From a bacterium (GTDB lineage: Bacteria > Cyanobacteriota > Vampirovibrionia > Obscuribacterales > Obscuribacteraceae), in assembly GCA_016124935.1 (NCBI GenBank), contig WGMS01000004.1, forward strand, positions 1-64,000: a stretch of 64,000 nucleotides of DNA. The letters run 5' to 3'. The position numbers were made by a program, and so were the translations under genes. The notes below the pieces were generated by a model, which searched no databases, was not told the DNA's origin, and was given only the letters and a program-made list of their open reading frames with translations. Below, one piece after another: positions 11,217-15,912 of this stretch (the first letter of the stretch is position 1; each line of letters begins with the position of its first letter).

Positions 11217-11540
11217 TCACAGCTCTTTTGTTTCGGATTCCGCAAAACATACGGAAGGATAACACTCTTTAGGAGAAGGACAGTAGGAATCATCTAAATA
11301 TTTAACCCACTGACTCTTAAAACATTCTCGCGAATAAATATATACCTTGAGGTCATCCAGCATCTCGGCTGCGTTCTTGCCGTTGGTCTGGGCGATACAG
11401 TTCAGGCACTGCATCGCCTCGGCAAAACCCAGGGCAAGGTTGAGGACTTGCTGCCGCAGGCACAGCCGAATGGAGCACCGCTTACATGTGCTCGGAGCGC
11501 CTTCAATCAGCAGGCTGCATGGTTCTTGTTGCTCGGACAT
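11217..11540 (-). CDS. Cysteine-rich small protein, first gene of the TusA operon
   Basis: This gene encodes 107 residues with ten cysteines, and I do not recognise it. The cysteines occur as CKRCSIRLC (residues 19, 22, 27), CLNC (45, 48) and a C-terminal group (73, 87, 93, 98). This layout suggests metal or iron-sulfur binding or persulfide handling. The middle is helical (RQQVLNLALGFAEAMQC). There is no signal peptide or membrane helix, so it is probably cytoplasmic. It lies 3 bases upstream of the TusA-like gene, a strong hint that the two products act together. Whether it delivers sulfur to, or takes it from, the carrier is inference. Confidence 0.75.
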   Translation of the reverse strand: MSEQQEPCSLLIEGAPSTCKRCSIRLCLRQQVLNLALGFAEAMQCLNCIAQTNGKNAAEMLDDLKVYIYSRECFKSQWVKYLDDSYCPSPKECYPSVCFAESETKEL

Positions 11541-11647: not shown

Positions 11648-12466
11648 ATGTCTCCGGCGCCAGGAACACACAGAAAGACACTTATCGCAGCCACCCTTGC
11701 TGCGCTTACGCTTCTCGGGGCCGAGCAGACTGCTTCAGCCCAATACAGCCCGAGCCCCTATCAAAACCAGCCTCAAACCCAGATCTATAAAAATTCCCCG
11801 GCGAATCAGGCTATACAGAATCATCGCATGCAGCTCAATAGCCGATACCGGCAGTTGCTCGATTCCGCAAACCGTCTTATAGGCGAAGGTCGCCCGCAGA
11901 ACGCGCTTCCGGTTCTGGCCGAAGCCGCGGCTATCAATCCGAGAGATCCCGAAGTCCACTTCTTTAGAGGCTTAGCCCTGGATAAACTAGCCGACTACAA
12001 AGACGCGGTCAAAAGTTATGCTCAATGCCTCACCCTGGCCAAGACAGCCGGTATGGATTCCAGCGAGTTGCGTATCAATTTAGGCAACACCCTGGTCAAA
12101 TTGAATTATTTGAACGAGGCGCTTTTCGACTATCAAAGAGCTATCGAAATCACTCCGACAAGCGGTTTGCCCCATCTTTATCTTGGCCGGCTTTATCTAA
12201 TCAAAACCGACTACAATCTTGCCCTGGACGAATTCAGAAAGTGCGAAGCGCTCCATTATCATGATACTTATCTGCCGTTTTTCAAAAGTCTTGCTTACAC
12301 TGGCTTGAAGCAATATGGAGATGCCCGGGAAGAATTGAGACCGCTGCTTACTTCCTTCTCCAAAACTGGTACTCCCGATTTATTTCGCCTGGCAAGCACC
12401 CTGGATGACACCTTGAGCAGAGAGCTCGAAATAGGGGCAAAAACAAAGAGTGGAAACAAGAATTGA
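11648..12466 (+). CDS. Exported TPR protein
   Basis: This 272-residue protein has a signal peptide (TLIAATLAALTLLGAEQTASAQ). A Pro/Gln/Tyr-rich linker follows (YSPSPYQNQPQTQ), then four or five clear TPRs from about residue 70: GRPQNALPVLAEAAAINPRDPEVHF, ADYKDAVKSYAQCL, LNEALFDYQRAIEITP and TDYNLALDEFRKC. It should act in the periplasm as a binding scaffold. Its last 17 bases overlap the start of the aspartase-like gene in another frame, so the two are probably co-translated. A start at the ATG at 11648 fits the signal peptide. Confidence 0.86.
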   Translation: MSPAPGTHRKTLIAATLAALTLLGAEQTASAQYSPSPYQNQPQTQIYKNSPANQAIQNHRMQLNSRYRQLLDSANRLIGEGRPQNALPVLAEAAAINPRDPEVHFFRGLALDKLADYKDAVKSYAQCLTLAKTAGMDSSELRINLGNTLVKLNYLNEALFDYQRAIEITPTSGLPHLYLGRLYLIKTDYNLALDEFRKCEALHYHDTYLPFFKSLAYTGLKQYGDAREELRPLLTSFSKTGTPDLFRLASTLDDTLSRELEIGAKTKSGNKN

Positions 12467-13841
12467 GAGCGACAAACACGGTCCGGAAGAGATTCCGATT
12501 GACGCCCTCTGGGGTCTTTCCACAAACCGCTATCAAAGACACCTCAGGCTGACCGAATTCCCTGTCCATCCGGTTCTGGTCAAAGCCCTGACCTTAGTAA
12601 AAAAAGCATCCGCCACCACCAACGGCATCATCGGCGAAATCTCATCTGAAACAGCCGAAACGATTGTAAAAAGCTGCGATCAAATCCTCGCCGGAGAATT
12701 GCAGGACCAGATTGTTGTAGATGCTCTTCATGGGGCCGGCGGCTGGGGTCTGACAAGAAATCTAAGCGAGGTTCTTGCAAACAACGCCAGTAAACTCATG
12801 GGCGGCGAGCCAGGTAGCTATTCGCCGGTTCATCCAAGAGAACACATAGACCTCAATCAGTCCTGCGCTGACACCTATGTCACAGCGATGCGCCTCGCCA
12901 TCCTTCTTGCCCTCGATGACCTGGAGGCAGGACTGCTCGACACGGAGCGTATGCTGAGGCGCAAAAGCCTGCAATTCGACAGGGTGATCAAACCGGGTCG
13001 AATCAACCTCAAAGACAGCGCTCCGATGACGCTCGGCCAGGAGCTGAACGCCTACGGATCGACAATAGAACGTGCCCTGCGCCGCCTGGAAGGAAGTCGG
13101 GAAATCTTCAGAGAAGTCAATCTGGGCGGCGGAGGTATCGGCACCGGTTTCAATACCAGTCCAAAATTCCAGGAAACTATCGTGCAAGAACTTTCGAAGA
13201 TCTTCGGTCAAGAGTTGAGAGCGGCAGACGACTTTATAAGAGTGGGCAGCTCCATGACCGATTTTGCCCATTTCTCGTCCAGCCTCAAAGAAGCGGCCCT
13301 TGATCTGGGCAAAATTGCAAGCGACCTGCGTCTCCTTTCCTCCGGACCCCAGGCCGGAATAGCCGAGATCATCCTCGATGGCCGTCTGGAAGAAAGTCCC
13401 CTGGTCGAAAGCCTGCTCATGCTCTGTCACCAGATTGCCGGCAACGACCTTAGCGTATCGCTTTCGGTAGCCTCGGGAAACCTGGAGTCTAATAGTGCCA
13501 CTCCATTAATCATAGAAAAGATCCTGGAGTCTATGGACCTCTTAAAACGAGCAGGCACAGCCTTTGTCGCTCAATGCCTGGCCGGTCTGAACGCAGACCA
13601 GGAGCGATGTCTCGCCCTGACTTCAAATACCGATGCTTTCATAGAGCTGCTTGCCACCGAGATTGGTATGGCAGAGGCGGCAGCAGTTGTAAAGAATTGC
13701 AGAGATCAAAACAGGGATGTAAAGGACTATCTATTAGAGAGCAAAATCCTGCACCCAGAGCGGATCGAGACGATTTTCAGCCATCGCTTCATGACATCAT
13801 CGAAACGGATTATACCTTTTAAAAATGCGGAGGAAGAATGA
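12450..13841 (+). CDS. Aspartase/fumarase superfamily protein lacking the catalytic serine loop
   Basis: This 463-residue protein aligns by eye along the length of aspartate ammonia-lyase. It has IPIDALWGLSTNRYQRH at the start, GAGGWGLTRNLSEVLAN (GAGTS... in AspA), and HIDLNQSCADTYVTAMRLAI (QSTNDxYPTxxRI region). GPQAGIAEI and HQIAGNDLSVS follow. The superfamily signature GSSxMPxKxN, which carries the general-base serine, should lie between the last two. Here the stretch reads ILDGRLEESPLVESLL and has no such serine, lysine or asparagine. Other substrate residues are also altered. It is probably a non-catalytic homologue or has a changed reaction. It starts at a GTG inside the upstream TPR gene. 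The reading frame is intact, so it is not simple decay. Confidence 0.82.
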   Translation: METRIESDKHGPEEIPIDALWGLSTNRYQRHLRLTEFPVHPVLVKALTLVKKASATTNGIIGEISSETAETIVKSCDQILAGELQDQIVVDALHGAGGWGLTRNLSEVLANNASKLMGGEPGSYSPVHPREHIDLNQSCADTYVTAMRLAILLALDDLEAGLLDTERMLRRKSLQFDRVIKPGRINLKDSAPMTLGQELNAYGSTIERALRRLEGSREIFREVNLGGGGIGTGFNTSPKFQETIVQELSKIFGQELRAADDFIRVGSSMTDFAHFSSSLKEAALDLGKIASDLRLLSSGPQAGIAEIILDGRLEESPLVESLLMLCHQIAGNDLSVSLSVASGNLESNSATPLIIEKILESMDLLKRAGTAFVAQCLAGLNADQERCLALTSNTDAFIELLATEIGMAEAAAVVKNCRDQNRDVKDYLLESKILHPERIETIFSHRFMTSSKRIIPFKNAEEE

Positions 13842-13909
13842 CCGAGGAGCGCATCCTCTGGGGAAGACAAGGGATTCGCAAGTCGCTCGATGCCCTCTAC
13901 ATGAATTAG
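13838..13909 (+). CDS. 23-codon ORF, possible SpoU-methyltransferase remnant or leader peptide
   Basis: An ATG overlaps the stop of the aspartase-like gene (ATGA) and is preceded by a strong ribosome site (GGAGGAAG). It opens a 23-residue ORF containing ERILWGRQGIRKSLDALY before TAG. The WGRQGIRKSLDAL pattern resembles the first helix of SpoU/RlmB-type RNA methyltransferases (YGRxAVxEAL). No methyltransferase continues in any frame downstream. It could be a truncated gene or a translated leader upstream of thymidine kinase. Confidence 0.4.
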   Translation: MTEERILWGRQGIRKSLDALYMN

Positions 13910-14051: not shown

Positions 14052-14693
14052 ATGCTGAGTGGATATAGACTTGAAGTAATTGTCGGATGTATGAGCGCGG
14101 GCAAATCGAGCGAGTTGATTCGCCGAATCGAAAGAGCCCGACTAGCATATCTGCCCACGATCATTGTCAGGCCTATAACGGACACCCGCTCCAAGCCGAA
14201 CCATGTCGAATCGAGAAACGGTCTCACCTCTCAAGCCCTGGTGGTAGAGAGCGCCCGGGACATCCTGAAATATTCTTCCCATGCCGTGGTGATCGGCTTA
14301 GATGAATGTCAGTTCTTCGATGAGGAGCTAATTCCTGTAGTGCAGACCTTATTGAGACAGAAGAAGAAGATCATCGCCTCCGGTCTCGACCTGGACTATA
14401 AAGGCGAGACCTTCGGCCAGGTTCCCACCCTGATGGCCATGGCTGACCGGGTGGACAAACTGCTGGCTGTCTGCCGAAAGTGCGGCTCCGATTTCGCCTG
14501 TCGCACCCAGAGACTGGTACATTCAGACGAGCAAATTCTGGTAGGTGATTGCCAGTACGAAGCCCGCTGTATTCATTGTTTCGAACCGCCCGGCGAGTAC
14601 CAGCTCAGACTGGAGCTGCCTCTGGCAGAAACAAACCCGCCCCAGCTGGCGATTGTCCAGGGTCAGGCGGCAGCGGCCACCGTCGCCAGTTAG
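14052..14693 (+). CDS. tdk: Thymidine kinase (type II)
   Basis: This enzyme phosphorylates thymidine with ATP in the salvage pathway. I start it at the ATG at 14052 (213 residues) because the family begins just before the P-loop, here VGCMSAGKSSELIRR. The Mg/base-switch motif is DECQFF, followed by the lasso-type loop SGLDLDYKGETFGQV. A zinc site is visible as CRKCG plus a later cysteine pair (ARCIHC). The listed upstream extension to 13911 is not Tdk-like. Length fits the family (190-215). The C-terminal 25 residues are Ala/Gln-rich and probably disordered. A long hairpin follows the gene. Confidence 0.95.
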   Translation: MLSGYRLEVIVGCMSAGKSSELIRRIERARLAYLPTIIVRPITDTRSKPNHVESRNGLTSQALVVESARDILKYSSHAVVIGLDECQFFDEELIPVVQTLLRQKKKIIASGLDLDYKGETFGQVPTLMAMADRVDKLLAVCRKCGSDFACRTQRLVHSDEQILVGDCQYEARCIHCFEPPGEYQLRLELPLAETNPPQLAIVQGQAAAATVAS

Positions 14694-15534: not shown

Positions 15535-15912
15535 ATGAGATCTAGCAGAATTACTAAAATCGTCATAGCTTCCCTGGCGCTCTGCGCCTTTGCAGGCGGT
15601 CTTGCCCTGGTGGATGCCAATCCTGCTTTCGCCAAAAGCAAGTCCTCGAAGTCCAGCCATTCGAAGAAAAGCAGCTCTAAGTCGAAAAAATCTTTCAGCA
15701 AAGGCAAGACCAAACTGGTACCGCCTCCGCCACCCTATGCTCCGTCCATTTTGCCGGAGCTAACCTATCGGCGCGGGGGTCGTGCCGTGGCGACCAGCGA
15801 AGAAGAGAAGCCGGTCAATCCTTATGCTAAGTACATCTATCACAGGGACGAGCAGAAACTACCCACCCCGGTACGTCACAACAAGTATGTAGCTTCCTGG
15901 AACGCAAATTAA
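15535..15912 (+). CDS. Small secreted Lys/Ser-rich protein
   Basis: This 125-residue protein has a good signal peptide (ITKIVIASLALCAFAGGLAL) with cleavage expected near NPAFAKS. The mature N-terminus is a lysine/serine-rich tract (KSKSSKSSHSKKSSSKSKKS), then a Pro run PPPPPYAP, then a conserved-looking tail ending NKYVASWNAN. The strongly basic, low-complexity mature region suggests binding to nucleic acid, polyphosphate or anionic cell-surface polymers, which is inference. It converges with the thiolase gene 9 bases away. No homologue is recognised. Confidence 0.72.
   Translation: MRSSRITKIVIASLALCAFAGGLALVDANPAFAKSKSSKSSHSKKSSSKSKKSFSKGKTKLVPPPPPYAPSILPELTYRRGGRAVATSEEEKPVNPYAKYIYHRDEQKLPTPVRHNKYVASWNAN

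Follow-up and report, generated by a model that had tools for sequence, protein, structure and literature searches.

A gene of the Obscuribacterales, here called pAspA for pseudo-aspartase, encodes a descendant of a bacterial aspartase whose catalytic apparatus has been lost, a conclusion that is well supported. The protein is probably an order-specific, non-catalytic pseudoenzyme with a binding or scaffolding role exerted through a stripe of residues on one helix. The loss of catalytic residues goes along with a retained fold, orthology across the clade, purifying selection, the gain of an invariant motif, and repeated truncation. The gene lies in the window, which is the whole stretch of 64,000 nucleotides analysed here (GenBank assembly GCA_016124935.1, contig WGMS01000004.1, positions 1 to 64,000).

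The first-pass annotation of the window had described an intact frame of 463 codons, homology to aspartase and fumarase over the whole length, and an overlap of 17 bases with an exported TPR gene. The frame has no internal stops, and no start codon other than the GTG at 12450 lies downstream of the previous in-frame stop and ahead of an RIESD motif. The overlap is exact, with the TPR frame ending at 12466, and the homology is nearly full length, since PRK12273, the NCBIfam aspartase model, covers residues 1-452 (E 4e-120). The window protein matches Pfam Lyase_1 (PF00206) with 171.1 bits against a cut-off of 27 (E 5e-50), and also matches the C-terminal fumarase domain, less strongly. Despite the near full-length alignment to aspartases and class II fumarases, all NCBIfam cut-offs are missed: the score is 401.8 for PRK12273 (cut-off 510), 330.8 for the aspartase model TIGR00839 (681.2), and 295.1 for the class II fumarase FumC model TIGR00979 (664.75). 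Sequence comparison with the PDB ranks lyases and aspartases highest, among them 3oce and 8rj0 (E 1e-84 to 1e-80). Structure prediction, which the first-pass annotation had proposed as a check, gives an AF2 model with pLDDT 86 and pTM 0.84 that superposes on aspartases including AspB with a TM of 0.85-0.89 in Foldseek. On the basis of this confidence and this agreement, the window protein is predicted to have the complete lyase fold with its central helical bundle.

Table 1. Coordinates of pAspA, its active-site remnants, its neighbours and a related cassette (window positions unless a locus is named)
Feature	Coordinates	Strand	Remarks
Pseudo-aspartase gene pAspA	12450..13841	+	GTG start, 463 aa; full aspartase/fumarase fold (predicted) without the active site
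GAGTS-equivalent segment	12732..12749	+	Residues 95-100, GAGGWG; catalytic T and S lost
QSTND-equivalent segment	12858..12872	+	Residues 137-141, QSCAD; T and N lost, S retained
Gained invariant helix motif, proposed docking face	12936..12971	+	L163-D-T-E166-R167-M-L-R170-R171-K-S-L174, helix 139-175
GRT(H/Q)LQD-equivalent segment	12996..13016	+	Residues 183-189, GRINLKD; catalytic T and H/Q lost
SS-loop, replaced and shortened	13371..13412	+	Residues 308-321, ILDGRLEESPLVES where GSSxMPxKxNP is expected
Exported TPR protein	11648..12466	+	Usual upstream neighbour of pAspA; 17-bp overlap here
Thymidine kinase Tdk	14052..14693	+	Usual downstream neighbour; start at MLSGYR (listed ORF from TTG 13911)
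HalD/GSSFF-lyase/aldehyde dehydrogenase cassette	L050:1715-5388, L051:2347-6229, L052:1808-5588, L053:1957-5584, L054:2268-6011		Five Obscuribacterales genomes

The active site of the superfamily is a composite of three regions, each contributed by a different subunit. AspB uses Ser318 of the SS-loop as its general base and binds the substrate through M321, K324, and N326 of the same loop together with T187, H188, and N142 (PMC11744663, PMC5806193). In the window protein, ILDGRLEESPLVE substitutes for the SS-loop with a net deletion. The canonical LPxxQPGSSIMPGKVNPVIxE stands against I-I-L-D-G-R-L-E-E-S-P-L-V-E, which is a deletion plus a replacement, and the general base S318 and the substrate contacts M321, K324, and N326 (AspB numbering) are gone. 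The first-pass annotation, which reported the loss of the GSSxMPxKxN loop with its general base and substrate contacts, was right on this point and understated the extent of the loss, as the whole active site has been lost. Twelve catalytic positions were scored, all of them strictly or almost strictly conserved across 52 canonical homologues. The window protein retains 2 of the 12, and its orthologues retain 0-6 (n=28), so that catalytic residues are missing in 28 of 28. The E. coli AspA sequence served solely to index the columns, and the conclusions rest on the sequences retrieved from the genomes. The aspartase active-site residues GAGTS, STND, and GRT(H/Q) are not preserved in the window protein, and the catalytic motifs of class II fumarase are absent from it. 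As judged from these losses, pAspA would probably no longer catalyse aspartate or fumarate chemistry.

A genome search gave relatives in most genomes of the family, the extended loci were retrieved, their ORFs were re-derived, and 28 genomes were examined at the locus. GSSxMPxKxN was found in none of the 28 orthologues there, so the loop, which the first-pass annotation wanted checked in orthologues, is lacking in all of them. A frameshift or assembly error in the loop, which it had named as fatal to its claim, is ruled out by intact frames in 28 orthologues from 28 independently assembled genomes. Counting weaker matches, GSS-less orthologues occur in at least 40 genomes, and across the 194 genomes of a class-wide search the GSS-less type was confined to this family. 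The clade is identified by named records as Candidatus Obscuribacterales (Melainabacteria). A single-sequence scan of the named-genome contigs gave zero matches, and an alignment-based scan found the loci. Of the 80 named-genome loci obtained, 26 encode GSS-less proteins, all with ERxLRRK, and 54 encode GSS-bearing proteins, none of which has it. In three genomes (G005, G014, and G018) no gene separates the exported TPR gene from Tdk, and both TPR and pAspA are absent from G026; the gene is therefore dispensable.

In the ML tree (LG+R5, 86 sequences), pAspA is monophyletic with a bootstrap of 100 and groups with an aspartase clade; its internal branching is poorly supported. The loss of the GSS loop goes back to the common ancestor of pAspA. 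The genome of the window has exactly one canonical homologue, L067 (G000:C1:293900-295267), which passes the PRK12273 aspartase cut-off and scores best with the fumC_II model, under the cut-off of the latter. L067 stands apart from the pAspA clade in the tree, and an origin of pAspA as a copy of the resident fumarase is rejected by this topology. The dN/dS ratio was determined by NG86/YN00 in congeneric pairs, of which 4 out of 7 were estimable and the other 3 failed from synonymous saturation. It is 0.03 (G012/G030), 0.03 (G022/G032), 0.06 (G027/G035), and 0.12 (G003/G025), figures that are approximate as synonymous divergence is high in most pairs. The first two pairs are near the value of the neighbouring Tdk, and the eroded pairs G027/G035 and G003/G025 are looser than Tdk and still strongly constrained. 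Maintenance by selection is thus found in all four estimable pairs and, along with the gained motif, supports the first-pass suggestion that selection probably keeps a different function.

The motif has the consensus L-x2-E-R-x2-R-R-x2-L, corresponding to window residues 163-174. Twelve columns are invariant in the 28 pAspA proteins. Six of these (E166, R167, R170, R171, L174, and D271) are among 114 columns at which the canonical enzymes are hypervariable (over 2.4 bits, n=52), and 5 of the 6 fall within residues 166-174. Except for D271, these invariant but formerly hypervariable residues lie on helix 139-175 of the AF2 model. At positions 166, 167, 170, 171, and 174 the canonical enzymes are 65-83% polar or charged, and the helix neighbours 158, 162, 165, 169, and 176 are fully hydrophobic in them; because of this substitution pattern, the five positions most likely form an exposed face of the helix. 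Position 163 is polar in canonical enzymes and has become mostly Leu in pAspA. L163, E166/R167, R170/R171, and L174 make up a single stripe with the spacing i, i+3/4, i+7/8, and i+11. A lost catalytic constraint together with a gained surface constraint is the pattern that would be expected of a gained binding site.

Under the preferred reading, the descendants of a bacterial aspartase have lost its catalytic residues and retained the lyase fold. The alpha-helical bundle, to which some lineages have been stripped down, would serve as a frame. The working part would be the outward-facing side of the long helix that comes first in the central domain; there, the stripe L163, E166, R167, R170, R171, and L174 may dock a putative partner. 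Such a partner would probably be acidic or anionic, and might be the acidic surface of a protein or some other anionic ligand. An evenly balanced, wider proposition is that a new non-enzymatic family may have arisen from aspartase at the base of the Obscuribacterales, with an exposed helix turned into an LxxERxxRRxxL docking surface and stepwise erosion to a bundle that databases do not recognize, the intermediates being alive at one syntenic locus.

The erosion within the clade affects both the domains and the loops. The C-terminal domain is absent in G012, G030, G021, and the eroded genera, and it is lost after about residue 385 in L037:9279-10541, L039:9210-10472, L047, and L055-L065. Inside the pAspA clade, this loss of the C-terminal fumarase domain appears to be the result of several independent events. 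The GRTHLQD loop and the SS-loop are shrunken or gone in the eroded lineages, which have thus lost the catalytic loops and the C-terminal domain and retained the motif. Ten eroded proteins, 8 from the own family and 2 from the sister family, were searched with Pfam; 6 gave no match and 1 gave only a spurious match.

The pAspA slot is also occupied in two genomes of the sister family (G036 and G037), where a protein of 351-372 aa with 12-18% identity to other members lies between the exported TPR gene and Tdk. A profile of eroded orthologues detects this protein with E 2.3e-9 for G037 in the genome search and with E of about 1e-12 in the set of locus ORFs. Against 50 shuffles per sequence, the two matches stand at 6e-9 and 6e-10 compared to 45 at best. 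The sister-family motif reads LERLIRKKSF and LERLIRRKNF, so that LERLIRxK is kept. Masking of the motif reduces the match to 0.02-0.06, and the orthology of the sister family therefore depends on the motif, synteny, and the predicted fold in combination. The AF2 model is a bare helical bundle (pLDDT 81, pTM 0.81) whose best PDB matches are lyases with a TM of 0.6-0.7, and its alignment contained less eroded orthologues that may have guided it.

Nitrosuccinate lyase and the coenzyme-M lyases represent new reactions acquired within the aspartase/fumarase superfamily, and pAspA could likewise be a neofunctionalised enzyme with a new active site in the fold and a different reaction. The fold of the window protein is intact by AF2 and Foldseek, as many as 6 of the 12 catalytic positions persist in the least eroded members, and a few of the 28 still have GRTHLQD. 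However, the loops of all three active-site regions are degraded and, in the eroded orthologues, fully removed. No new family-wide conserved polar cluster is seen at the old site, and the invariant polar residues run along the helix well ahead of the old catalytic H/Q. To our knowledge, the known superfamily members with new functions also keep a working lyase site, and this explanation is considered improbable. It is quite improbable that pAspA acts as a regulatory subunit in a hetero-oligomer, mixing with the canonical class II fumarase-like enzyme and tuning or poisoning its three-subunit sites. Such mixing would suit the single canonical homologue L067, the match of the pAspA fold to lyases in Foldseek, and the sharing of superfamily active sites among three subunits (PMC5806193, PMC11744663). 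On the contrary, pAspA diverged from the aspartase side and not from the resident enzyme in the ML tree, and the C-terminal domain and the loops needed for a shared site are gone in many orthologues. Moreover, the invariant motif is on the first central helix, whereas the contacts of the human fumarase tetramer are made by the later helices 12-14 (PMC5806193).

A structural role of the motif is unlikely. In this case, E166, R167, R170, and R171 would only stabilise by salt bridges a helical bundle deprived of its native contacts, with the function elsewhere in the protein. Three positions hold Arg and never Lys throughout 28 highly diverged proteins, which is more than stability alone would require, and L163 and L174 on the same side are likewise conserved, even though the i/i+4 spacing of E166-R170 and R167-R171 suits salt bridges and the invariant D271 could pair with an arginine. 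The chance that pAspA is a decaying pseudogene or an assembly artefact is negligible. The loss of catalytic residues and the lack of the gene in some lineages would agree with decay, and the intact frames of the 28 orthologues, the dN/dS values, and the new invariant motif lead to its rejection.

The locus order is a serine/threonine kinase-TPR gene, an HPPD-like gene, two TPR genes, TusA, a small Cys-rich protein gene, the exported TPR gene, and pAspA, followed by Tdk, two small genes, thiolase, alanine dehydrogenase (Ald), and exonuclease (XthA). This neighbourhood is common to the 28 genomes with the GSS-less protein, though single neighbours vary. Because the gaps between TPR and pAspA in other genomes range from 16 to 315 bp, the overlap is a detail of the window genome with little functional information. 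Eight loci have no detected adjacent TPR gene. No Tdk was detected in G001 and G024, both of which bear pAspA, with the same query that matched other genomes. As pAspA persists without each neighbour and three lineages retain TPR and Tdk without pAspA, the idea of either as an obligate partner is not supported. The lack of an obligate neighbour, like the several lineages without the pAspA gene, counts against the docking of a partner.

Several other features were observed at the locus. The small Cys-rich protein (107 aa, window 11217-11540, minus strand) lies beside TusA in most genomes of the order and has no Pfam match. A small exported protein (window 15535-15912, plus strand), also without a Pfam match, has a conserved VPPPPxYxPS-like stretch and occurs at the loci of many genomes. 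A 23-codon ORF, MTEERILWGRQGIRKSLDALYMN (window 13838-13909, plus strand), begins at the pAspA stop and ends ahead of Tdk. A large 5'-nucleotidase-like protein is encoded immediately upstream of the exported TPR gene at L037:5324-8398 and, as a long ORF, at roughly half of the loci, a count limited to long ORFs as the short ones included ORFs antisense to TusA. In the eroded genera, the 5'-nucleotidase-like gene is followed by a flavin reductase-like gene. Nucleotide breakdown and thymidine kinase are thus often brought together at this locus. An Rfam search for an RNA element at the locus gave only two distant tRNAs.

Among known systems, aspartate ammonia-lyase AspA/AspB (PRK12273, TIGR00839; PDB 8rj0, 1j3u) is the nearest canonical clade and shares the fold (TM 0.85-0.89) and the full-length similarity. 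In contrast to it, pAspA lacks Ser318, M321, K324, and N326 of the SS-loop, has lost the equivalents of T187 and H188, misses the family cut-offs, and has gained the LxxERxxRRxxL helix motif. Class II fumarase FumC (TIGR00979), with whose model the single canonical homologue of the host scores best, has the same fold and belongs to the same superfamily, but pAspA shows the same catalytic losses relative to it and sits on a separate branch of the tree. Delta-1 crystallin of the avian lens is an inactive argininosuccinate lyase of the same superfamily, and is a precedent for retention of the lyase fold by a protein that has become inactive, as proposed for pAspA. However, delta-1 crystallin, a close duplicate, serves a bulk structural role in a single tissue, whereas pAspA, a bacterial family, spans a clade, has gained an invariant motif, and is heavily eroded. 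A passage of PMC2779060 cites a comparison of enzymatically active and inactive delta crystallins, and pseudoenzymes are an established class (reviewed in PMC10211241, PMC5106787). No paper among those searched by full text describes a bacterial pseudoenzyme family that derives from an aspartase and has gained a motif.

Although pseudoenzymes are widespread, the steps by which an enzyme becomes a non-enzyme seldom survive. At this one locus, a series can be followed from a degraded site with the full fold, through the loss of the C-terminal domain and of the catalytic loops, to a bundle invisible to Pfam, and a newly gained motif, probably on the surface, stays fixed through the whole series. 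The use of an enzyme fold after catalysis is made directly testable through five motif residues. There is also an annotation risk, in that the less eroded pAspA proteins strongly match aspartase/fumarase models over their full length and could be named aspartate ammonia-lyase. Such misnaming would insert an activity that pAspA probably lacks into metabolic reconstructions of the Obscuribacterales.

A second altered lyase occurs in five Obscuribacterales genomes, in a three-gene cassette with a HalD-like Fe/2OG amino-acid halogenase and an aldehyde dehydrogenase (Table 1). It is an aspartase paralogue with GSSFFxxKxNP, in which Cys replaces the catalytic His and the C-terminal domain is absent. 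Like pAspA, it is aspartase-like, has an altered active site and no C-terminal domain, and comes from the same family of organisms. Unlike pAspA, it belongs to another clade and to its own cassette, lacks ERxLRRK, and retains the two serines, K, and N of the loop, and because of these retained residues it is probably still an enzyme. The cassette looks like a pathway in which an amino acid is modified and then cleaved by the altered lyase. A canonical aspartase at L073:204-5435 is flanked by HydF and a radical-SAM/BATS (HydG-like) gene, and so belongs to an [FeFe]-hydrogenase maturation operon; this aspartase is sister to the GSSFF paralogues in the ML tree.
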